Under the pieces are notes generated by a model. The model was not told the DNA's origin and did not search any database. It saw only the letters and a program-made list of their open reading frames with translations. Positions 3,362 through 29,780 of a stretch of 43,517 bases of DNA are shown here, in pieces (position 1 is the first letter of the stretch; each line of letters opens with the position of its first letter). Origin of the DNA: Acidimicrobiales bacterium (GTDB lineage Bacteria; Actinomycetota; Acidimicrobiia; Acidimicrobiales; Ilumatobacteraceae); NCBI GenBank assembly GCA_030828465.1, contig JAURCL010000012.1, positions 1 through 43,517 of the forward strand. The letters are read 5' to 3'. A program made the translations under genes and the position numbers.

Positions 3362-4126
3362 GGCCTCTTCGCCCGCTTCGGCGGGCTCGTCGCCATCGGT
3401 GAAGGCCGCGTATCCGTCGGCCTCGAGGGTGGTGGCGAGTTCTGCTCCTCCGGACGCGACGATGCGTCCTCGAACGAGGATGTGCACCCGATCGGGCTTC
3501 AACTCGGTGAGCAACCGGTTGTAGTGCGTGATCGCGAGCACACCGAGCGGATTCTCGGCGTCGTTCGAGAGTTCCTCGACCCGGCGTGAGCAATCGCGAA
3601 GCGCGTCGATGTCGAGGCCCGAGTCGAGCTCGTCGAGGATGGCGATACGAGGCCGCAACATCGCGAGTTGCAGCGTCTCGTTGCGCTTCTTCTCACCTCC
3701 AGAGAGATCGACATTCAACGGGCGATCGAGGAACCGCTCCTCGAAACCGATCCTCGCCGCCTCAGCCACCAGGTGCCCGCGCACATCGCCGCTGGCGCGA
3801 CCGCGGGAGGTGAGCGCCTCGACCATGACGTCGTGTAGCGCGACTCCTGGCACCTCGGTCGGGTACTGCATCACCAGATGCAACCCGGCGACGGCGCGCT
3901 GCCAGGTCGGCATCGCCAAGACGTCCTCACCGTCGAGCGTGACGGACCCGGCGGTGACCTCGTAGCCAGCGCGACCCATGACGACCGCCGACAGCGTGCT
4001 CTTTCCCGCCCCGTTCGGCCCCATGACCGCGTGCACCTCGCCACTACGAACCGTGAGGTCGACGCCCCGCAAGATCTCGCGCCCAGCGACCGTGGCATGG
4101 AGTCCGCTAATCACCAGTTCGCTCAT
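3332..4126 (-). CDS. sufC: SufC, ATPase of the SUF Fe-S assembly complex
   Basis: A 264-residue ABC ATPase of normal SufC length. Walker A GPNGAGKST is at residues 36-44, the Q-loop is in LVMQYPTEVPGV, the signature is LSGGEKKRNE and Walker B is IAILDELDSGLDIDAL; LSGGEKKRNE plus DELDSGLDID are diagnostic for SufC. It acts in the cytoplasm with SufB and SufD as a scaffold where ATP hydrolysis drives Fe-S cluster assembly. ATG 4126 overlaps the stop of the Rieske ferredoxin by ATGA. It is the last gene of the cluster on this strand; no sufS, sufU or sufT follows, since a convergent DUF1289 gene occupies the next stretch. Confidence 0.96.
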   Translation of the reverse strand: MSELVISGLHATVAGREILRGVDLTVRSGEVHAVMGPNGAGKSTLSAVVMGRAGYEVTAGSVTLDGEDVLAMPTWQRAVAGLHLVMQYPTEVPGVALHDVMVEALTSRGRASGDVRGHLVAEAARIGFEERFLDRPLNVDLSGGEKKRNETLQLAMLRPRIAILDELDSGLDIDALRDCSRRVEELSNDAENPLGVLAITHYNRLLTELKPDRVHILVRGRIVASGGAELATTLEADGYAAFTDGDEPAEAGEEASGLDDLFRM

Positions 4127-5958: not shown

Positions 5959-7359
5959 TCAGCCGACCGAACCCTCCATCTGCAATTCGATGAGTCGGCT
6001 CCACTCGACCGCGTACTCCATCGGCAGGGTCCGGGTGATCGGCTCAATGAATCCGTTCACCACCATGCCGATGGCCTGTTCCTCGGTGAGGCCACGCGAC
6101 ATGAGGTAGAAGATCTGCTCATCGGCGATCTTCGAGACCGTCGCCTCGTGACCGATCTCAGCATCTCGCTCGCCCATCTCCATGTAGGGAAGGGTCTTCG
6201 ACACCGAGTCCTCGTCGAGGATCAGCGCGTCGCACTGCACGTGACTGCGGCAGCCGTGCGCTCCTTCGTCGACCTTGACGAGACCGCGATAGGTGGTCAC
6301 ACCGCCGTCCTTGGAGATCGACTTAGACACGATCTTTGAGGTCGTGTTCGGAGCCGCGTGGACCATCTTCGCCCCAGCGTCCTGATGTTGCCCCTCACCG
6401 GCGTAAGCCACCGACAGCACCTCGCCGGTCGCGCCCTCGCCCACGAGATAGACGGCTGGGTACTTCATGGTGAGCTTCGAGCCGATGTTTCCGTCGATCC
6501 ACTCCATGTGACCGCGCGCCTCAACACGAGCGCGCTTGGTGACCAAGTTGTAGACGTTGGGCGACCAGTTCTGGATCGTCGTGTAGGTGACCCGGGCGTC
6601 GGGTTTCACGATGATCTCGACCACCGCGGAGTGGAGCGAGTCGCTGGTGTACACCGGCGCGGAGCAACCCTCGATGTAGTGCACCTTGGCGCCCTCGTCG
6701 GCGATGATGAGCGTGCGCTCGAACTGACCGGCATTCTCGGAGTTGATTCGGAAGTACGCCTGCAGCGGCATCTCACATTCGACGCCGGGCGGCACGTAGA
6801 TGAACGACCCTCCCGACCACACGGCCGAGTTGAGGGCGGCGAACTTGTTGTCGCCGGGCGGGATGACCGACCCGAAGTACTGCTTGACGAGATCGGGATA
6901 CTCCCGCAAGGCGGTGTCCATGTCGCAGAAGAGGATCCCCTGAGCCTCAAGGTCCTCGCGGTTCTTGTGGTACACGACCTCGGACTCGTACTGGGCCGTC
7001 ACACCGGCGAGGTATTTGCGCTCGGCCTCGGGGATCCCGAGCTTCTCGTACGTGCGCATCATCTCCTCAGGCAGCTCATCCCACTCGTCGACCTGCTCGC
7101 CAGCGGGCTTCAGGTAGTAGAAGATGTCCTGGAAATCGATGTCGGGCATGTTGGTCGCGAACCACTCGGCCATGGGCTTGCGATCGAAGAGTCGCAGCGA
7201 CCGGAGCCGGGACTCGGTCATCCAACGCGGCTCGCCTTTCCACCAGGAGATCTGCTCGACCACGCCCTGATTGAGACCCTTGACCGGATCGAAGGCGTAC
7301 TCCACCTCGTCGTTCCAGCCGAGCTGGTACTTGGAGAGATCGAGATCGAACGTCGTCAC
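5959..7359 (-). CDS. sufB: SufB, SUF scaffold subunit
   Basis: A 466-residue protein of full SufB length. Landmarks are the N-terminal [73 protein letters not shown] with the conserved late cysteine, and [20 protein letters not shown]. SufB is where sulfane sulfur and iron are assembled into [4Fe-4S] clusters together with SufC and SufD. The start is GTG 7359 with a TGAGGAG Shine-Dalgarno at about 7369-7375, so unlike sufD this gene has a leader of roughly 60 nt. Upstream is a promoter overlapped by an ACTA-N6-TAGT palindrome; downstream are the Cys4 protein and sufD. Confidence 0.97.
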
Positions 7360-7418
7360 GTCACTTGCTCCTCAGGGGGTTCGAGTATCCGGCCGGGAAG
7401 TTCCCGATCGGCATTTTC

Positions 7419-7433
7419 ACTACGGGGATAGTA
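7419..7433 (-). promoter_or_regulatory. sufB promoter with ACTA-N6-TAGT operator
   Basis: On the minus strand TACTAT (7433-7428) is a good -10 box, placing the start of transcription near 7421 and leaving a leader of about 60 nt before GTG 7359. The palindrome ACTA-N6-TAGT (7419-7432) overlaps the -10. The flanking block AATT...CCGTAGTG.AAAT.CCG (7439 down to about 7411) matches the block beside sufD at almost every base. No strong -35 is seen, which would fit an activator- or repressor-governed promoter. Confidence 0.6.
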
Positions 7434-7471
7434 ACAATTCCCGCGCCACCGGACCACCCGAGCGGGTCGGC

Positions 7472-7762
7472 TCAGTCGCCTTCGGGCAACGCACCCGAAC
7501 GATCCTCGCCGGGACCGATGGCAGGCACCGGGACCTCGATGAAGATGCACTCTCCCGGGCAAACCTCAGCCGACTCGACCACGGCCCGCTCGAGCCGCTC
7601 AGGCACCTCGGCGATGCTCCTCGATCCGCCTGGATCGTTGAGGACACGACCAGCCTCAACCACGTAGGCGATGCCATCCTCCAAGAGCGTGAACACCGAC
7701 GGGCAGTGGTCGACACACAGGCCGTCACCCGTGCACAGGTCCTGATCGATCCACACCCTCAT
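7472..7762 (-). CDS. Single-cluster ferredoxin with Asp at the second ligand
   Basis: A 96-residue ferredoxin. The cluster motif is C10-TG-D13-GL-C16-VDH-C20-P with distal cysteines C68 and C72 (EVCPGEC). The pattern C-x2-D-x2-C-x3-CP is the one seen in Pyrococcus furiosus ferredoxin, where Asp ligates a [4Fe-4S] that readily converts to [3Fe-4S]; many actinobacterial P450-type ferredoxins have another residue there. C20 with C72 or C68 could form the matching disulfide. The tail after residue 75 is acidic and Pro/Gly-rich. ATG 7762 is the start; a TAGCGT box ends 10 nt upstream. The gene precedes sufB on the same strand but sufB has its own promoter. Confidence 0.88.
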   Translation of the reverse strand: MRVWIDQDLCTGDGLCVDHCPSVFTLLEDGIAYVVEAGRVLNDPGGSRSIAEVPERLERAVVESAEVCPGECIFIEVPVPAIGPGEDRSGALPEGD

Positions 7763-7783
7763 GGCCGAACGGACGCTATCCCC

Positions 7784-7789
7784 TACCCT
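7784..7789 (+). promoter_or_regulatory. -10 box of the oligopeptidase gene (leaderless)
   Basis: TACCCT is followed by 7 nt and ATG 7797. The gap to the divergent ferredoxin start is only 34 bp, so the two promoters overlap. Confidence 0.5.
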
Positions 7790-7796
7790 GCGGCCC

Positions 7797-9860
7797 ATGT
7801 CAGGACGAGCCGCCGATGCATCGCCGCCCACTCCGCCAGCGCCAGAGCGACGACCGCATGTCCTTCCTCGGGTTACCGGCGACGTCATCGACGACTGGTA
7901 CTGGCTGCGCGACCGCACGGATCCGGCGACGAGCGCCCACCTCGAAGCAGAGAACGCTCACGCTCGCTCGTGGTTCGAGGCCACAGGAGCACTCGTGGAC
8001 ACGATCGATGCCGAGATCAGATCGAGGGTTCTCCAAACCGACATCTCGACCCCTGTCCGCCACGGACCGTTCTGGTATTCGGCTCGCACCGTCGAAGGAC
8101 TCGACTATCCGATCCATTGTCGAGCTGAGCGCGCCGACGACCCGGAGCCCACGGTCATCCTCGACGAAAACGTCGAAGCGTCCGACACCGACTTCTTCGA
8201 TCTCGGCGCGCTCGAGCCATCCCCCGACCACCGGCTGATCGCTTGGTCGGCCGACACCCGCGGGGACGAGCACTACTCCCTGCGTATCCGGGACCTCACG
8301 AACGGATCAGACCTCGATGACGTCATCGACGACACCACCTGGGCGGGAATCGCTTGGAGCTCGGACGGCGCTCACCTGCTCTACGTCGTCGCCGACGACG
8401 CGGAGCGTCCCTGTGAGGTCCGCCTCCATCGGATCGGCTCTCCCGCTACCGATGACCAAGTCGTCTTCCGAGAGGACGACGAACACTTCTACGTCGGCAT
8501 TGGCGCGACGAGGAGCGGGCGCTACATCGTGATCCACACCGCGTCGAAGACCTCCTCGGAGGTGCGTCTCCTCGACACCACCGACATCACCGCTCCCGCT
8601 CGGGTGGTGCGCCCCCGCGCTTCCGATGTCGAGTACCAGCTCGACGACTGGGGAGACCGCCTCGTGATCGTCACCAATCTCGACGCCGTCGACTTCCGCG
8701 TGATGACCGCCGACCCGGCGTCGCCCGGTGACTGGACGGAGTTCATCTCCGGCACTCCCGGGCGAAGGATCGTCGCCGCGGAGCCCTTCGAGGGTCATCT
8801 GGTCGTACTCGAGTGGGTCGATGCTCAGCCAAGGATGCGAGTTCTCGACCGCGATGGGGCCGAGATGCCCCTCGACATCGACTCCGAGCCCCACGACCTG
8901 ACTTTCGGGCCGAACGAGGAATGGACCAGCCGAACCGTTCGGGTGGTCCACCAATCGCTCACCTCACCTCCCCGGATACTCGACATCGACCTCTCCGACG
9001 GCACGAGCACCCTCGTGCGACGAACTCCGACCCCCAACGTCGACACCGACGACTACGTCGCGCATCGCGAATGGGCAGAGACCGCCGACGGCACTCTTGT
9101 CCCGTACGACGTGGTCCGCCATCGAGACACTCCGCTCGACGGCTCGGCAGCGGCCGTCGTCTACGCCTACGGCGCCTACGAGATCTCTCTCCCCCCATGG
9201 TTCTCCGTCGCTCGACTCTCGCTGCTCGACCGAGGCGTCGTGTGGGTGCTCGCGCACCCCCGTGGCGGAGGGGAGCTCGGGCGGAACTGGTACCTCAACG
9301 GTCGCCTTCTTCACAAGCGCAACACCTTCGACGACGTGAACGCCGTTGCCGAGCGGATCGGCTCGAACGGCACCGCGGATCCACGACGACTCACCATCCG
9401 CGGCGGAAGCGCCGGAGGCCTCATGACCGGGGCCTGCATCACGATGCGACCCGATCTGTGGAACTGCGCGGTGGCCGAAGTGCCCTTCGTTGATGTGGTC
9501 ACCACCATGAGCGACCCCTCACTTCCGCTCACGGTCACCGAGTGGGACGAGTGGGGCGATCCTCGCGAGGAGCCCTGGGCGACGTACATCGCCTCCTACT
9601 CCCCCTACGACAACACCATCGACTCCAACCGACCGGCGATGCTCGTTACCGCCGGGCTCAACGATCCACGAGTCGGCTTCCACGAACCGGCCAAGTGGGT
9701 CGCGCGGATGCGTCACCTCGATGAGACCCGCGCCGAGGGGAACGCGCGACCACTGCTGCTCCGAACGGAAATGGGCGCCGGACACGCCGGACCGAGCGGG
9801 AGGTACTCGGCGTGGCGCGAGGAGGCCGAGAACCTCGCCTTCATCCTGTCGAACAACTGA
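7797..9860 (+). CDS. ptrB: Oligopeptidase B (S9A prolyl-oligopeptidase family)
   Basis: A 687-residue serine peptidase of normal length. The N-terminal part has DDWYWLRDRTDPATSAHLEA, typical of S9A enzymes, followed by a seven-bladed propeller region. The C-terminal alpha/beta-hydrolase domain has YAYGAYEISLPPWFS, HPRGGGELGRNWY, the nucleophile S538 in RGGSAGGLM, D623 in GLNDPRVGFHEPAKW and H663 in GAGHAGPSGR. NDPRVGFHEPAKW is closer to oligopeptidase B, which cleaves short peptides after Lys or Arg, than to prolyl endopeptidase. There is no signal peptide, so it is cytoplasmic. ATG 7797 is chosen because TACCCT ends 7 nt before it. Confidence 0.93.
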   Translation: MSGRAADASPPTPPAPERRPHVLPRVTGDVIDDWYWLRDRTDPATSAHLEAENAHARSWFEATGALVDTIDAEIRSRVLQTDISTPVRHGPFWYSARTVEGLDYPIHCRAERADDPEPTVILDENVEASDTDFFDLGALEPSPDHRLIAWSADTRGDEHYSLRIRDLTNGSDLDDVIDDTTWAGIAWSSDGAHLLYVVADDAERPCEVRLHRIGSPATDDQVVFREDDEHFYVGIGATRSGRYIVIHTASKTSSEVRLLDTTDITAPARVVRPRASDVEYQLDDWGDRLVIVTNLDAVDFRVMTADPASPGDWTEFISGTPGRRIVAAEPFEGHLVVLEWVDAQPRMRVLDRDGAEMPLDIDSEPHDLTFGPNEEWTSRTVRVVHQSLTSPPRILDIDLSDGTSTLVRRTPTPNVDTDDYVAHREWAETADGTLVPYDVVRHRDTPLDGSAAAVVYAYGAYEISLPPWFSVARLSLLDRGVVWVLAHPRGGGELGRNWYLNGRLLHKRNTFDDVNAVAERIGSNGTADPRRLTIRGGSAGGLMTGACITMRPDLWNCAVAEVPFVDVVTTMSDPSLPLTVTEWDEWGDPREEPWATYIASYSPYDNTIDSNRPAMLVTAGLNDPRVGFHEPAKWVARMRHLDETRAEGNARPLLLRTEMGAGHAGPSGRYSAWREEAENLAFILSNN

Positions 9861-10269: not shown

Positions 10270-11082
10270 TCAACCTGCAAGGAGTTCGATAGTCGCGCGT
10301 TCGCGAGCGACGGTCACGCGAGGTGACGTGGAGTGGCAGTGGACCTCGACCATCTCGTCGAGTTGGCAATCGGAGCGCTCAGGATCGTGATGGAACATGA
10401 CGAGGTGACGGGCATCAGCCGCGCGCGCGACGTCGAGTGCGAACTCCGGGGTGCAGTGCCCCCAGTCAGGTCGACCTGCCAGTTCGACCGCCGTGTACTG
10501 AGAGTCGTGGATGAGCAGATCGACTCCTCGACAGAGATCGATCACCTCCGGATCGGGACCCGAGCCGTCCATCGGCTGCTGGTGGTCGCTGACGTAGCCG
10601 ACGCTGATCCCGCAGAGATCGACCCGATAGCCGAGTGTTCGTCCGACATGACGGACCTCCGCCGATGACACCGCCACCCCACCGATCATCCGCTGGCCCG
10701 CGTCGAGACCCACGAAGTCGGGCCGGGCCGGGAACGAGTCGAGTCCCACCGGGAAGACCGGTTCGCGGATGATCGCAGCCATCTTCTCGCCGAGCGGAAC
10801 ACCGTCGACCGGCGCCGGCGCGCAGACGGTGATTCGACTCGCCTGATCGAGCATCGGTGGAAAGAACGGAAGCCCTTGAATGTGATCCCAGTGCAAGTGG
10901 GTCACCAGGCAGATCACCTCTCGCCCGGCGTCCACCGCCGCGTAACGCGATCCGGTGCCGAGATCGAAGAGCACGAGGGGCTCACCGGGGGCGTCAATAC
11001 CCACGCAGGAGGTGTTGCCCCCGAAGCGCGCCGTCTCCTCGCCGTGGCAGGCAGTCGAGCCGCGCACCCCGTGGAAGGTCAC
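10270..11082 (-). CDS. MBL-fold metallo-hydrolase
   Basis: A protein of about 270 residues with the metallo-beta-lactamase fold. Metal ligands are in THLHWDHIQGLPFF (HxHxDH), the later Asp in GYVSDHQQP, and DWGHCTPEFALDVA plus VMFHHDPERSD near the end. This belongs to the phosphodiesterase-like group that includes PhnP and 3',5'-cAMP phosphodiesterase relatives; the substrate is unknown. The start is uncertain. GTG 11082 gives MTFHGVRGST, but a TAGCGT box at 11115-11110 is followed by 6 nt and then ATC 11103 in frame, which would add GDKTVTV and restore a full first strand. The MauE gene follows after 3 nt. Confidence 0.85.
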   Translation of the reverse strand: MTFHGVRGSTACHGEETARFGGNTSCVGIDAPGEPLVLFDLGTGSRYAAVDAGREVICLVTHLHWDHIQGLPFFPPMLDQASRITVCAPAPVDGVPLGEKMAAIIREPVFPVGLDSFPARPDFVGLDAGQRMIGGVAVSSAEVRHVGRTLGYRVDLCGISVGYVSDHQQPMDGSGPDPEVIDLCRGVDLLIHDSQYTAVELAGRPDWGHCTPEFALDVARAADARHLVMFHHDPERSDCQLDEMVEVHCHSTSPRVTVARERATIELLAG

Positions 11083-11109
11083 CGTGACCGTCTTGTCTCC
11101 GATGCTCGA

Positions 11110-11115
11110 ACGCTA
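11110..11115 (-). promoter_or_regulatory. -10 box upstream of the MBL-MauE operon
   Basis: Minus-strand TAGCGT. Six bases later comes an in-frame ATC (11103-11101), 21 nt before the first GTG. Either a short-leader mRNA starting at GTG 11082 or a leaderless AUC start is possible. Confidence 0.45.
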
Positions 11116-11193
11116 GCCACGCTCGCGAAAACCGCTCACCGACATTCGTCACACCTCACCGTCGAGGCTCCACCGCCGCGGCGGCTCGTCGGT

Positions 11194-11199
11194 TAGCGT
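11194..11199 (+). promoter_or_regulatory. -10 box of the thioredoxin-fusion/selenoprotein operon (leaderless)
   Basis: TAGCGT is followed by 6 nt and ATG 11206, with no Shine-Dalgarno. The same hexamer serves the divergent MBL-MauE operon about 80 bp away. Confidence 0.55.
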
Positions 11200-11205
11200 C
11201 GCCAT

Positions 11206-12645
11206 ATGACCGCACCGTCGCTTCCGGAAGGCTTGGTCGCCGTCGTCAAGCGGGATTGCGAGACGTGCCAGATGATCGCCCCCGTGCTCGCCGAACTCGC
11301 CGAGCAGACCTCGCTCACCGTGTTCTCACAGGACGATCCGGCGTTTCCCGAAGGCCTCACCGTCACCGATGACCGCGACCTGTCCGTCAGTTGGCACCAC
11401 GAGATTGAGACCGTGCCCTCCCTGATCCGAGTCGGCGTCGCCGGCGAGGAGGCGCGCACTGTCGGCTGGTCGATCGAGCAATGGCGCGCCCTGACCGGGA
11501 TCGACCAACTCGCCGCGGATCTCGGCCTCCCCGAACAGCGCCCAGGATGCGGATCGATGAGCGTCGACCCCGATCTCGTCGACAGCCTGAGAGTCCGGTT
11601 CTCCGGATCCACCCTGCGCGCTCGCCGCCTCGACCTCGCCGAGGCCGAGGACGAGTTCGAGTACATGCACCGGATGGGGTGGAGCGACGGCCTTCCTCTG
11701 GTGCCCCCGACCGCCGAGCGGGTGCTCGCCATGCTCGAGGGCACGTCGAGACCTCCAGATGAGGTAGTCGCGATCGTGCCCCCCGACCTCAACCAAGCAA
11801 CGGTCGAGAAGATCGCGATCTCCGCCGTCATGGCGGGCTGCCTCCCTGAGCACCTGCCCTGGGTGATCACCGCGGTAGAGGCTGTCTGCAACGACGAGTT
11901 CAATATGCACGGACTCCTCGCCACCACCATGCCTGTCGGACCGGTGATCGTCTGCAGCGGACCGGGAACAGCCCGCATCGGGATGAACCCAGGGGTCAAC
12001 GCGCTCGGACAGGGCAACCGAGCGTCACTGTCGATCGGACGCGCGCTGCAACTGCTGGTGCGAAACCTCGGTGGTGGTCGACCCGGCGGCGTCGACCGGG
12101 CCACCCACGGCAACCCCGGCAAACTCAGCTTCTGCTTCGCCGAGCATCCCGGGGCCTTCGGCTCACTCGCATCAAGCCGCTCCGACCTCGACGAGTCGAC
12201 CGATGCGATCACGGTGTTCGCCGGAGAGGGGCCCCGGTGCATCGTGGATCAACTCTCACGCAGCCCGGAGAGCCTCGCGGAAACGCTCGCGGAGAACCTC
12301 CGGGTGATGCATCACCACAAGTTGGCGCTCGCATTCGACGCGATCCTGGTGCTCGGACCCGAGCACGTTCGCGTCTTCACCGAAGGCGGCTGGGATCGGC
12401 CGCGCATCATCGCCGAGCTCGAGTCACGTCTGCAGTTGCCCTATCCAGACATCGTCCGCGGCGCCGGGGGAATCGCCGAGGGGATCCCCGACGGCCTCGG
12501 ACTCGAGTCACTCCCGAAATTCAGCCCCGGCGGCCTCATGCTCGCCCACGCCGGTGGCGGCGCGGGCCTCTTCTCAATGCTGATCGCCGGGTGGGTCAAC
12601 GGAGACTCGGGCAGCCGACCCGTCACCCGCGCGGTGCAATACTGA
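11206..12645 (+). CDS. Thioredoxin-fold fusion protein, partner of the UGSC selenoprotein
   Basis: A 479-residue protein in two parts. Residues about 9-110 look like a thioredoxin fold: a first strand LVAVVKRD, then C18-E-T-C21 starting a helix, and a cis-Pro candidate P71 in ETVPSLIRV. After a hinge with C115 (RPGCGSMS) comes a large domain of about 340 residues that I cannot name, with MGWSDGLPLVPPTAERVLAM, VMAGCLPEHLPWVITAVEAV, CNDEFNMHGLLATTMPVGPV and GMNPGVNALGQGNR. It ends 4 nt before the selenoprotein start, so the two are translated together; the CxxC domain is a natural reductant for a selenol partner. No signal peptide. Function is inferred from context. Confidence 0.75.
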   Translation: MTAPSLPEGLVAVVKRDCETCQMIAPVLAELAEQTSLTVFSQDDPAFPEGLTVTDDRDLSVSWHHEIETVPSLIRVGVAGEEARTVGWSIEQWRALTGIDQLAADLGLPEQRPGCGSMSVDPDLVDSLRVRFSGSTLRARRLDLAEAEDEFEYMHRMGWSDGLPLVPPTAERVLAMLEGTSRPPDEVVAIVPPDLNQATVEKIAISAVMAGCLPEHLPWVITAVEAVCNDEFNMHGLLATTMPVGPVIVCSGPGTARIGMNPGVNALGQGNRASLSIGRALQLLVRNLGGGRPGGVDRATHGNPGKLSFCFAEHPGAFGSLASSRSDLDESTDAITVFAGEGPRCIVDQLSRSPESLAETLAENLRVMHHHKLALAFDAILVLGPEHVRVFTEGGWDRPRIIAELESRLQLPYPDIVRGAGGIAEGIPDGLGLESLPKFSPGGLMLAHAGGGAGLFSMLIAGWVNGDSGSRPVTRAVQY

Positions 12646-12649
12646 TCTC

Positions 12650-13174
12650 ATGTCGTCAAAGGTATTGCTCGATCCGACGTCGGAATCGGCCCCGGCAGAA
12701 CGCCAGCGGATCGCCCGACCGGCGAACCTCGACGGACTCACCGTCGGACTCCTCGACATCTCCAAACCACGTGGTGACGTGTTCTTGGATCGACTCTCCG
12801 AGCACCTCGAGCGGCGCGGTGCGACCGTCAGGCGCTACCGCAAGCCAACCTTCGCCAAGCCGGCGCCGGTCGATCTGCGCCACGAGATCGCCGGCCAATG
12901 CCATGTGGTGATCGAGGCGCTCGCCGATTGAGGCAGCTGCACGTCGTGCAGTGTGCACGACATCAGTGATCTGGAGATCCGCGGAGTGCCCGGCGTGTTC
13001 ATCGCCTCGAGCGAATTCGTCGACGCCGCCGTCGCGCAGAGCACCGCGCTCGGATACCCGTCGATGGCGCGCGTCTTCGTGCCACATCCGATCCAAGACC
13101 GCACCGACGACGAGATGCGAGCCCACGCCGATCGCGCGATCGACGAGATCCTCACCGCCATCACTTCCGACTAA
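12650..13174 (+). CDS. UGSC-family selenoprotein (UGA at 12929-12931 read as Sec)
   Basis: One 174-residue protein if the in-frame UGA is decoded as selenocysteine, U94. The sequence around it is VVIEALAD-U-GSCTSCSVHDI, the U-G-S-C motif that defines the UGSC (seleno)protein family first noted in marine metagenomes. Both halves have intact coding character: LDGLTVGLLDISKPRGDVFL and LERRGATVRRYRKP before, and IRGVPGVFIASSEFVDAAV and YPSMARVFVPHP after, in the same frame. A hairpin with 8-bp arms at 12943-12961 places its apical loop 20-22 nt past the UGA, like a bacterial SECIS. The true stop is TAA 13172-13174. The biochemical role is unknown; U94 with C97 (U-G-S-C) could act as a selenylsulfide pair. 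Automatic annotation would break this into two fragments. Confidence 0.85.
12929..12931 (+). other. Selenocysteine codon (in-frame UGA)
   Basis: TGA between GAT and GGC in the selenoprotein gene. It encodes U94 of U-G-S-C. Translation stays open on both sides: 93 codons before and 80 after, up to a TAA. Confidence 0.82.
12943..12961 (+). promoter_or_regulatory. Candidate bacterial SECIS hairpin
   Basis: Perfect 8-bp arms GTCGTGCA (12943-12950) and TGCACGAC (12954-12961) with a GTG loop (12951-12953). The stem begins 12 nt and the loop 20 nt after the UGA. Known bacterial SECIS elements have the apical loop roughly 16-37 nt downstream with a G in its first two bases, which this one meets. The hairpin lies in coding sequence (SCSVHD). 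A rival 6-bp hairpin at 12937-12951 overlaps it. Confidence 0.7.
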
Positions 13175-13199
13175 CGAACGGGACACCGTCCGGCGCCGC

Positions 13200-14066
13200 T
13201 CATCCGAGCACGATCTCGCCGTCGATCCGGCGACAGAGACCCTCAGCAACGAGGTCAGCGAGCAGTCGATCCGCAAGGGCGGGATCGCGTTGCATCACCG
13301 ACGGGACCACGCCAACAGGAACCGCGCCATCGACGAGAGCAGCGAGCAGTCGACCCCGCGCCTGCCGGTCACTGCCCTCGAAACGAGCTTGCTTCCCGCT
13401 CACCCCGGCGGAACCCCGCGCAGGATCTGAGCGCTCAGCCGACCCTGCCCAGGCGCACTGCCGTTTCACCGGGCAGCCTCCGCAACCCGGTGACCTCGCG
13501 GTGCACACGGTCGCACCGAAGTCCATAACGACCTGATTCCAGATCCAGGCGTCTCCCTCGGGAACTAGCTCATCGGCGAGCGCCTGCGCCGCCGCCGGAC
13601 GAAGCCGCTCCCCTACCAGCCGAGCCAGCATCCGGCCGACATTGGTGTCGAGCACCCCGACGTCGAGACCGAATGCGAACGCGGCGACAGCCCGCGCCGT
13701 ATACGGACCGACGCCGGGAAGATCCATCAACTCCTCCACCGTCGCCGGGAACCGGCCCGCAGCCGCGATACGCCCCGCCGCATCGTGGAGCGCTCGGGCT
13801 CGCCGCGGGTACCCCAACCCCTGCCAGAGCCTGAGCAGATCGGCCAGCGGCGCCGAAGCGAGCGCCTCGGGAGTCGGGAACCGTTCCATGAATACTTCCC
13901 AACGCGGAATGATTCTCGCTACTTGGGTCTGCTGGGCCATCACCTCGCTCACGAGCACACCCCAGGGATCGCGGGTGCGCCGCCAAGGCAGGTCGCGCAG
14001 CCGGGGCCCTCCCCAGGAGAGCAGTTCCGGCACGACCTCCTCAGAGATCGATGGCGCCGGGGTCAC
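13200..14066 (-). CDS. mutY: A/G-specific adenine glycosylase MutY
   Basis: A 288-residue DNA-repair glycosylase that removes adenine mispaired with 8-oxoguanine. The catalytic Glu is in SEVMAQQTQV, the helix-hairpin-helix is LPGVGPYTARAV, the catalytic Asp is in LDTNVGRML, and the [4Fe-4S] loop is C-x6-C-x2-C-x5-C in VCTARSPGCGGCPVKRQC. The C-terminal NUDIX-like domain that reads 8-oxoG in E. coli MutY is absent; a short winged-helix-like tail (SDRQARGRLLAALVDG...) takes its place, as is usual in actinobacteria. GTG 14066 overlaps the stop of the YbhN-like gene by GTGA. The Fe-S cluster would be supplied by SUF. Confidence 0.92.
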   Translation of the reverse strand: MTPAPSISEEVVPELLSWGGPRLRDLPWRRTRDPWGVLVSEVMAQQTQVARIIPRWEVFMERFPTPEALASAPLADLLRLWQGLGYPRRARALHDAAGRIAAAGRFPATVEELMDLPGVGPYTARAVAAFAFGLDVGVLDTNVGRMLARLVGERLRPAAAQALADELVPEGDAWIWNQVVMDFGATVCTARSPGCGGCPVKRQCAWAGSAERSDPARGSAGVSGKQARFEGSDRQARGRLLAALVDGAVPVGVVPSVMQRDPALADRLLADLVAEGLCRRIDGEIVLG

Positions 14067-28163: not shown

Positions 28164-29780
28164 TCAGGCGAGGGCGACCAGCTCGAGCCACTCCTGTGAG
28201 AAGTAGTCGACCTGACCGTCGGGGAGGAGCAGCACCTTCGTCGGCGAGAGACGCTCGACGAATTCCGTGTCGTGACTCACCAAGATCACCGTTCCCGGCC
28301 AGGGCTCGAGGGCCTCGGCCACCGCTGAGCGAGACGCCGGATCGAGGTTGTTGGTCGGCTCGTCGAGGAGCAGCAAGTTGTTGCGACCCGACATCAGCAT
28401 CGCGAGCGCGAGCTTCGTCTTCTCGCCGCCCGACAGCGTGCCTGCCCGCTGGAGCACCTTGTCGCCCGACAGGCCGAACATCCCGAGAAGCGCGCGCAGT
28501 TCGGTCTCGGTGAGCGTTGTTCCAACGGTGAGCGCCCGCCGCATGTTGTCAAGCAGCGAGGCGTCGACATCGAGGTTGTCGTGCTCTTGGGCGTAGTACC
28601 CAGGCACCACCTGGTGCCCCCACAGGACCTCGCCGAGATCGGCCTCGGTCTCCCCGGCGAGGATGCGAAGCAGACTCGTCTTTCCAGCGCCGTTCAACCC
28701 GAGCACGAGAAGGCGCTCGCCGCGCCCGATGTCGAACCGGACATCCTCAAAGACCTTCGGACCGCCGTATCCCTTGCAGAGACCCGACACCGTGAGCGAG
28801 GTGACGCCGCTCGCGGGCGGATCCGGGAACCGCACCCTCAGGGTCCGGTCGCGATCCGACACACGAACCCGTTCGGACTCGAGGCGGGCGATGCGTCGCT
28901 CCATGTTGTGCGCCATGGCCGCCTTGGTGGCCTTGGCGCCGAATCGATCGACCACGCGTTGCATTCGAGCGATCTCACGCTCCTGCTGCGCGGCGGTGCG
29001 GGCGCGCCGTCGCTCATCCTCCGCGCGGGCCGTCACGTACTGCGAGTAGGTGCCCCGGTACTCGACGATCCGCCCGGTGTCGGATTCACCAGGACGGTCG
29101 AGGTGCAGCACACGGGTGATGGCCTCATCGAGCAACTCGAGGTCGTGGCTGATCACCAGCAGAGCCCCCCGGAAGCCCCGGAGGAATCCGAGGAGCCATT
29201 CCTTGGCATCGATGTCGAGGTGGTTGGTCGGTTCATCGAGGCAGAGCACCTCCGATCCGGCGAACAGGATTCGGGCGAGTTCGACACGGCGGCGCTCCCC
29301 GCCAGACAGCACGCCGATCGGGAGCTCGAGCCGCGCGTCAGGAACGCCGAGCCCAGCCGCGATCGACCGGGCCTCACCCTCCGCCGCGTATCCACCCGAG
29401 GACGCGAAGAGCTCCTCAGCCCGAGAGAACCGTCGAACGGCGTCCTCGGACGGAGATTCCTCCATGGCGATGCGGAGTTTCTCGATCCGCTCGAGCTGAT
29501 CGTCGATCGATCGACCCGACAGCACATGCGAGATCGCTCGCCGCGAGTCGTGAACTCCGGCGATCCGGGGGTCCTGAGGCAGATACCCGAAGGCGCCCCG
29601 ACGCACCACCCGTCCCGATATCGGCTCCTCCTCGCCGCCGAGCACGCGGAAGAGCGAGGTCTTTCCCGCTCCATTGCGTCCGACGATGCCGACCTTGTCG
29701 CGGGCCATCACCGTGAAGTCGGCCGACTCGACGACGGTGCGCCCACCGACCTCGACGGTGAGCGACTGGGCCTGGAGCAC
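28164..29780 (-). CDS. ABC-F family ATPase
   Basis: A 538-residue protein with two ABC domains and no membrane segments. The first has GRNGAGKTS, LSGGERRRVELARILF and LDEPTNHLDIDAKEWL; the second GLNGAGKTS, LSGGEKTKLALAMLM and LLLDEPTNNLDPASRS. Between them lies a charged linker (RRRARTAAQQEREIARMQRV...), the interdomain P-site-tRNA-interacting region of ABC-F proteins. These factors act on the ribosome in translation or antibiotic protection; the subtype (EttA-, Uup- or resistance-like) is not certain. GTG 29780 follows TAGCCT by 6 nt. The stop lies 4 nt from the convergent fumarase stop. Confidence 0.93.
   Translation of the reverse strand: MLQAQSLTVEVGGRTVVESADFTVMARDKVGIVGRNGAGKTSLFRVLGGEEEPISGRVVRRGAFGYLPQDPRIAGVHDSRRAISHVLSGRSIDDQLERIEKLRIAMEESPSEDAVRRFSRAEELFASSGGYAAEGEARSIAAGLGVPDARLELPIGVLSGGERRRVELARILFAGSEVLCLDEPTNHLDIDAKEWLLGFLRGFRGALLVISHDLELLDEAITRVLHLDRPGESDTGRIVEYRGTYSQYVTARAEDERRRARTAAQQEREIARMQRVVDRFGAKATKAAMAHNMERRIARLESERVRVSDRDRTLRVRFPDPPASGVTSLTVSGLCKGYGGPKVFEDVRFDIGRGERLLVLGLNGAGKTSLLRILAGETEADLGEVLWGHQVVPGYYAQEHDNLDVDASLLDNMRRALTVGTTLTETELRALLGMFGLSGDKVLQRAGTLSGGEKTKLALAMLMSGRNNLLLLDEPTNNLDPASRSAVAEALEPWPGTVILVSHDTEFVERLSPTKVLLLPDGQVDYFSQEWLELVALA

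Follow-up and report, generated by a model that had tools for sequence, protein, structure and literature searches.

A UGSC-family selenoprotein gene of an Acidimicrobiales bacterium, its apparently near-obligate partner gene and a probable distant relationship to GrdB and PrdB

The DNA analysed here (43,517 nucleotides, below called the window) is contig 3 of a 1.83-Mb assembly that is 92.6% complete. Two short frames on its forward strand, 12650–12931 and 12953–13174, share one reading frame, with a TGA at 12929–12931 between them and a TAA at 13172–13174 as the closing stop. With the TGA read as selenocysteine (Sec94), a single gene runs from ATG to TAA at 12650–13174 and encodes 174 residues with the motif U94-G-S-C97-T-S-C100. 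A hairpin resembling a bacterial SECIS element occupies 12943–12961 on the same strand, 11 nt after the TGA. Directly upstream, a gene at 11206–12645 (forward strand) encodes a protein of 479 residues, here called the partner, and ends 4 nt before the start codon of the selenoprotein gene. Other neighbours in the window encode an adenine-glycosylase-like protein, an LPG-synthase-like membrane protein and a metallo-beta-lactamase-fold protein, homologues of which accompany 34, 25 and 30, respectively, of 43 fully flanked relatives; these genes say little about a substrate. The only tRNA found in the window by ARAGORN is a tRNA-Cys (GCA) at 28717–28806 on the reverse strand.

With cysteine written in place of selenocysteine, the product matches PF24696 (“UGSC family”) over residues 6–172 with 161.8 bits (cut-off 25, E 2.3e-47) and the equivalog model NF041046 (“UGSC family (seleno)protein”) over residues 28–171 with 166.5 bits (cut-off 125). 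Since both matches span the TGA, the sequence on either side of it matches the family. Thus, the preliminary description, which had assigned the two frames to one UGSC gene split by a single TGA and ended by the TAA, is upheld in each of these points; the selenoprotein family is one already described, and the gene is a typical representative of it. With 255 sequences, UGSC ranks fifth in the selenoprotein table of the Global Ocean Sampling survey (PMC2398784), and the consulted part of a 2026 review lists it among selenoproteins with largely uncharacterised functions (PMC13188914); both sources agree with the earlier statement that the function of the family is not established. The same statement had placed the family in marine metagenomes. 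It does occur there, but this is too narrow, as UGSC was relatively commoner in the non-marine samples of the 2008 survey (PMC2398784).

A search for relatives in a genome collection gave 369 confirmed hits, the best 80 of which were kept as loci, and TGA is present at the aligned selenocysteine codon in all 80. The closest named locus comes from an Ilumatobacteraceae assembly and encodes a protein that is 89% identical; named isolates with TGA at this codon are Ilumatobacter nonamiensis and Desertimonas flava. The GC content at the three codon positions is similar before (0.71/0.47/0.77) and after (0.64/0.49/0.85) the TGA. Synonymous and amino acid changes counted against four relatives, all of which have TGA at this position, were 37/10, 35/16, 30/22 and 35/25 before the codon and, for the same relatives, 19/8, 23/9, 17/19 and 16/18 after it. 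These values show constraint on both sides and bear out the proposal that coding quality is continuous across the TGA. For a family alignment, 117 profile hits in the fetched loci were reduced to 36 representatives, and a fused homologue with methionine at position 94 (L125) and a GrdB protein (L143) were excluded, leaving 34. All 34 carry selenocysteine (24) or cysteine (10) at position 94, so the cysteine homologues that had been proposed as a check exist. P9, C97, G112 and F123 are invariant, while position 100 is cysteine in only 21 of the 34. Eighteen pattern matches to UGSC in viral contigs yielded no confirmed member.

The machinery for selenocysteine decoding, which the preliminary description had suggested looking for in the same genome, is present there in full, each component exceeding its curated cut-off. 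A tRNA-Sec scores 63.1 bits, over the Rfam cut-off, and has the anticodon TCA according to ARAGORN; selA (390.8 bits) adjoins selB (243.4 bits, barely over the cut-off of 242.25) on contig 21; and selD (307.5 bits) lies on contig 22. Thus, neither of the two outcomes that the preliminary description had named as refuting, a genome lacking selB/selC or a lack of homologues with Cys or U at position 94, was obtained. We also surveyed 396 genomes of the phylum, 27 of which have a UGSC match over the cut-off, 23 of them with at least one Sec form. A selA gene was found in 22 of these 23 genomes, in one of the four UGSC genomes without a Sec form and in 236 of the 396 overall (Fisher p 1e-4, uncorrected for kinship). 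One draft genome (G036, 94% complete) has a Sec-form UGSC gene at positions 205469–205966 of its contig C10 (L104) and no selA match.

The loop of a bacterial SECIS element is expected to hold GU. The hairpin in the window, GUCGUGCA-GUG-UGCACGAC, has an 8-bp stem and a GUG loop, which agrees with the SECIS-like structure originally noticed after the codon. Since it is unexceptional when folded alone (z −1.08; 29 of 200 shuffles fold equally well), the weight rests on conservation and compensatory changes. Corresponding segments were collected from 117 hits, 114 of which were clean and 106 distinct (95 Sec, 11 Cys). All eight pairs form in 81 of the 95 Sec segments, and at least six pairs together with a GU-N loop in 94. 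The exception, L124 (1474–1980, reverse strand), is a fused UGSC–partner protein with the motif UDGC; only the first pair forms there, and no hairpin follows its TGA. None of the 11 Cys segments combines at least six pairs with a GU-N loop, although the stem is complete in L132 and has seven of its eight pairs in L129 and L135. Among 67 distinct Sec rows, three pairs have changed on both sides; the covariation score was reached by none of 500 shuffles and the count of doubly changed pairs by one of 500, with the caveat that related sequences may beat shuffles without any structure. The clearest compensation is seen in four Sec rows that have tryptophan at position 100 (TGG) and carry C at the paired third base of codon 102, the other 63 having a C-G pair. 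When the 3′ strand was slid by +2, 62.6% of cells were still paired and the covariation score was 0.066, as compared with 0.082, because the hairpin sequence is nearly palindromic. The mean z against synonymous recoding was −1.32 in the 95 Sec and −0.44 in the 11 Cys segments. As the bases of the hairpin also encode the conserved motif, the SECIS evidence is only partly independent. Rfam models gave nothing up to E 1 at 11000–14000 and nothing at gathering level across the window.

We are nearly certain that the gene encodes a UGSC-family selenoprotein whose UGA is decoded by the genome’s own selenocysteine machinery with the help of the SECIS hairpin. The standard code does split the frame in two, but a pseudogene, a sequencing error or an ordinary stop that leaves two fragments is practically untenable in view of the TGA kept in all 80 loci, the constraint on both sides of it, the decoding machinery in the genome and the covariation in the hairpin.

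The upstream gene accompanies UGSC with few exceptions. A tblastn match to the partner is present in 73 of the 80 UGSC loci (the best 80 of 369). In four of the remaining seven, UGSC lies within 400 nt of a contig end; in the other three (L058, L078 and L079), a full-length partner is found elsewhere in the genome, not beside UGSC. Six of the seven genomes (all but that of L088) were searched for the partner: three have a full-length copy, one a partial copy and two, of 1.3 Mb each, none. In the sample of 396 genomes, the partner occurs in 29, and none of the 27 genomes whose UGSC match exceeds the cut-off lacks it (Fisher 8e-40, uncorrected for kinship). Two of the 29 partner-bearing genomes, G183 and G351 (short fragment), have no UGSC match, and two further genomes (G196 and G271) have weak UGSC matches below the cut-off and no partner. 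Among 116 UGSC copies, some of them fetched twice from different collections, the partner lies on the same strand within 250 nt in 103, farther away in three and, under the length filter, nowhere in ten, seven of which sit near a contig end. In L124, L165 and L173, UGSC and the partner form one frame in which the Sec TGA is the only stop. Judged from this distribution, the upstream gene appears to be a near-obligate partner of UGSC, and it is very probable that the two proteins work together.

A tblastn search of plasmid records gave 15 with UGSC and 24 with the partner; eight UGSC hits and five partner hits were examined as loci. A Cys-type UGSC gene adjoins the partner of an Embleya plasmid, and a Haladaptatus plasmid has a partner and no UGSC match in the whole record. 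The hits in Sporomusa (L188) and Vibrio (L189) plasmids are fused UGSC–partner proteins. Together with the fused protein of L125, they read D-M-G-T-S where the others read D-[U/C]-G-S-C, that is, with methionine for Sec94 and serine for C97. These three homologues are more distant and lie outside the 34-member alignment. Genes annotated as aconitase X adjoin the fused copies of Sporomusa and Vibrio. As two plasmid records show, UGSC genes still enter the databases as broken hypothetical proteins. In plasmid pFER4 of Paracoccus ferrooxidans (CP038202.1; L186), a Sec-type UGSC gene at 3399–3968, with the partner adjoining, is entered as two hypothetical proteins. This plasmid also carries an annotated selB, about 3.3 kb downstream; an ORF at 6818–8182 was considered as selA-like, which was not supported. 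In the IncP plasmid of Acidovorax sp. T1 (NZ_CP021650.1; L133), a UGSC frame at 8001–8522 with an in-frame TGA and a compensated hairpin is entered as a “hypothetical protein” of 291 nt, and no gene is listed over the adjoining partner.

At E 0.001, neither Pfam nor NCBIfam gave a family for the partner, and a comparison of its sequence with solved structures gave nothing below E 0.89. The N-terminal part of the partner (11206–11505, about residues 1–100) is thioredoxin-like. TIGR01068 matches 9 of 28 members of the partner family at E up to 10 (best 6.5e-6; 0.019 for the protein of the window), and in an AlphaFold2 model (pLDDT 81.7) this part aligns with PDB thioredoxins at Z up to 9.0 (rmsd 2.2, 85 residues aligned). 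The other fold matches listed for the model are a few low-quality rows for fumarase and fusion proteins. According to the translation and the partner alignment, the domain contains a CxxC motif, C18-E-T-C21, at 11257–11268. Such a domain is present in 12 of the 28 aligned partners. The body that follows is without a family; its Cys212 (codon 11839–11841) is invariant in all 28, within MAGC in most. The partner as a whole shows more invariant residues than UGSC.

Some partner copies that lack the thioredoxin-like domain have a thioredoxin reductase nearby. A trxB gene occurs in four of the eight plasmid UGSC loci, all of Cys type (L130, with trxA; L131; L134; and L136, where it is interrupted). 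In 20 chromosomal stretches, 19 around divergent UGSC copies and one (L180) with the partner only, a search for trxB returned a single weak homologue (L178). Thioredoxin is described as the reductant of the glycine reductase complex and is argued against for D-proline reductase in the consulted part of PMC10298544.

The predicted structure of UGSC (pLDDT 95.3) has five strands that alternate with five helices, with U94 between strand 86–92 and helix 95–110. The domains that it matches in the PDB are of a generic Rossmann- or flavodoxin-like kind; a designed protein and chain H of an MCR activation complex (8s7v_H; rmsd 3.2, 132 residues aligned) share the best VIA-align score, Z 11.4. The Global Ocean Sampling survey had suggested a thioredoxin-like fold for UGSC (PMC2398784), which we tentatively set aside in view of the predicted topology and a profile score of 14.6 against the thioredoxin-like domain of the partner. 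No thioredoxin is among the 50 structural matches listed for UGSC, an absence that is no proof in itself. Comparison by sequence with solved structures gave nothing below E 0.47 for UGSC and nothing below E 0.11 for a GrdB/PrdB profile.

We then aligned the UGSC profile by hhalign with a profile of 11 GrdB/PrdB-like sequences. The match extends over 98 columns with selenocysteine on selenocysteine and a score of 62.9 (probability 96.1%, E 3.1e-9). As controls, 60 column shuffles scored 20.0 at best, two reversals 14.2 and 20.1, and 13 unrelated profiles, including GrdE, the partner and a six-member family of probable short-chain dehydrogenases, 21.6 at best. The score was 41.2 against GrdB alone and 35.2 against PrdB-like proteins alone. 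In a small custom set, the UGSC profile matched one GrdB (L143; E 0.0023). The motif is AT-U-GTGTRCG in the GrdB proteins of related genomes (L137–L143) and V[PI]-x-U-PVCH in the stand-alone PrdB-like proteins. The 20 families listed for the 34 UGSC proteins with an E limit of 10 do not include PF07355. In the GrdB loci L137–L143, the PF07355 matches end just before the Sec codon and leave the Sec motif of the proteins uncovered, which may be why the link between UGSC and GrdB has gone unnoticed. Very probably, the selenocysteine of UGSC is placed after a strand and before the helix that follows it, in a Rossmann-like domain whose distant relatives include the Sec domain of GrdB and PrdB.

One could suppose from the UxxC motif, and from the thioredoxin-like domain and trxB nearby, that UGSC works alone as a thiol-disulfide or peroxide oxidoreductase and that the partner is another redox protein of the same operon. 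This is quite improbable, as UGSC is predicted to be a Rossmann-like sandwich, is unlike the partner’s thioredoxin-like domain by profile and comes with a large, near-obligate partner.

We lean instead towards a two-component reductase that acts on a small organic acid and draws its electrons from thioredoxin, with UGSC as the selenol subunit. In glycine reductase, glycine is bound by protein B, which also releases ammonia (PMC10298544). A mechanism for the UGSC pair can be proposed by analogy. The partner body, with its invariant Cys212, would bind a small organic acid and activate or polarise it. Sec94 would attack the substrate and take up the cleaved group. Resolution of the adduct, as a selenenylsulfide, would fall to C97 and, in the proteins that have it, C100. 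The selenol would then be restored by the fused thioredoxin-like domain, or by Trx/TrxB supplied otherwise. Both the substrate and the chemistry in this scheme are inferred. Several observations weigh against it: the lack of PF07355 among the listed matches, a partner body unlike GrdE, the variable position 100, the near absence of trxB from the chromosomal stretches, the Sec-form genome with no selA match, the partners in G183, G351 and the Haladaptatus plasmid with no UGSC match, and the argument against thioredoxin in D-proline reductase.

Conversely, the partner may be the enzyme, a lyase, dehydratase or isomerase, with UGSC as its redox switch, structural subunit or activator. The fused homologues with methionine keep both scaffold and partner. 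As the redox pair is thus dispensable to the scaffold, selenocysteine chemistry can hardly be the sole purpose of UGSC and its partner, and our confidence in a reductase is lowered; that these homologues survive, two of them beside aconitase X genes, favours a partner with enzymatic activity of its own. Further points in the same direction are the Haladaptatus plasmid with a partner and no UGSC match, the larger number of invariant residues in the partner and the presence of 8s7v_H among the two best structural matches of UGSC. Against this, UGSC is related to the Sec domain of known reductases, selenocysteine or cysteine is kept in all 34 aligned members, and the top Z is shared with a designed protein and is generic for the fold. 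On balance, we regard the assignment of the catalytic role to the partner as unlikely, and a two-component reductase remains the preferred reading.

The surroundings of plasmid copies hint at organic-acid catabolism. A TRAP, TAXI or tripartite-tricarboxylate binding protein is encoded within about 8 kb in six of the eight plasmid UGSC loci and a CoA-transferase within the same distance in five of the eight, both counted without a control. Annotated phosphosulfolactate synthase genes lie near the Cys-type UGSC pairs of a haloarchaeon (L129) and an Arthrobacter (L130). Among 107 neighbours of 19 divergent copies, short-chain dehydrogenases (six) and CoA-transferases of family III (five) lead; these counts, too, are without a control, and nothing is drawn from them.

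Tentatively, and with more doubt than belief, UGSC and its partner could be counted as a third class of selenol reductases of the GrdB type, with members in Actinomycetota and Proteobacteria and, in a Cys form, in haloarchaea. Thioredoxin would supply the electrons for the reductive cleavage of a common dissolved organic acid; the partner would be a new substrate-activating family in place of the pyruvoyl subunit of glycine reductase, and the fused branch without selenocysteine or cysteine would have moved to a non-redox reaction. The family itself is known; what is new here is the near-obligate partner, the thioredoxin link, the covariation in the SECIS element and the distant relationship to GrdB/PrdB. 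The preliminary description contained neither the partner nor the thioredoxin link nor the kinship with GrdB. Taken together, the near-obligate partner, the likely source of electrons and the remote kinship to proteins whose chemistry is known make a testable enzyme of an orphan selenoprotein.

In comparison with the UGSC-containing selenoproteins already described (PF24696, NF041046; PMC2398784, PMC13188914), the gene of the window is no different: it passes the family cut-offs and has the UGSC motif and a TGA at the expected codon. The family as it appears in the consulted parts of these sources has no GrdB link, a supposed thioredoxin-like fold and no named partner other than Unknown_1. The latter is a conserved domain of unknown function that was reported in the Global Ocean Sampling survey as fused to UGSC (PMC2398784, Figure S1A); the part of the survey consulted gives a fusion and no general co-occurrence with UGSC. 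Perhaps Unknown_1 is the partner body described here. Within the scope of what was covered in PMC2398784, PMC13188914, PMC9312934, PMC7435645, PMC1088965 and PMC1794560, with subscription papers and supplements outside that scope, neither a link between UGSC and GrdB/PrdB nor a named partner beyond Unknown_1 is mentioned. UGSC differs from GrdB in that PF07355 is absent from its listed family matches and in that its partner is unlike GrdE by profile: a GrdE homologue was considered for the partner and rejected, as the partner body has no similarity to GrdE (PF09338), encoded by the ORF upstream of GrdB, or to the product of the ORF downstream. The host genome has no PF07355 match. UGSC should therefore not be filed as GrdB, for which both a PF07355 match and a GrdE-like partner would be expected. 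The likenesses are nevertheless several. UxxCxxC is named as the GrdB motif in the consulted part of PMC13188914, and UGSC of the window has U94-x-x-C97-x-x-C100, the last position being cysteine in only part of the family. As in GrdB/PrdB-like proteins, there is tight pairing with a second gene, next to the similarity of the profiles around a shared selenocysteine. Finally, thioredoxin, the reductant of glycine reductase (PMC10298544), is linked to the UGSC pair as well.
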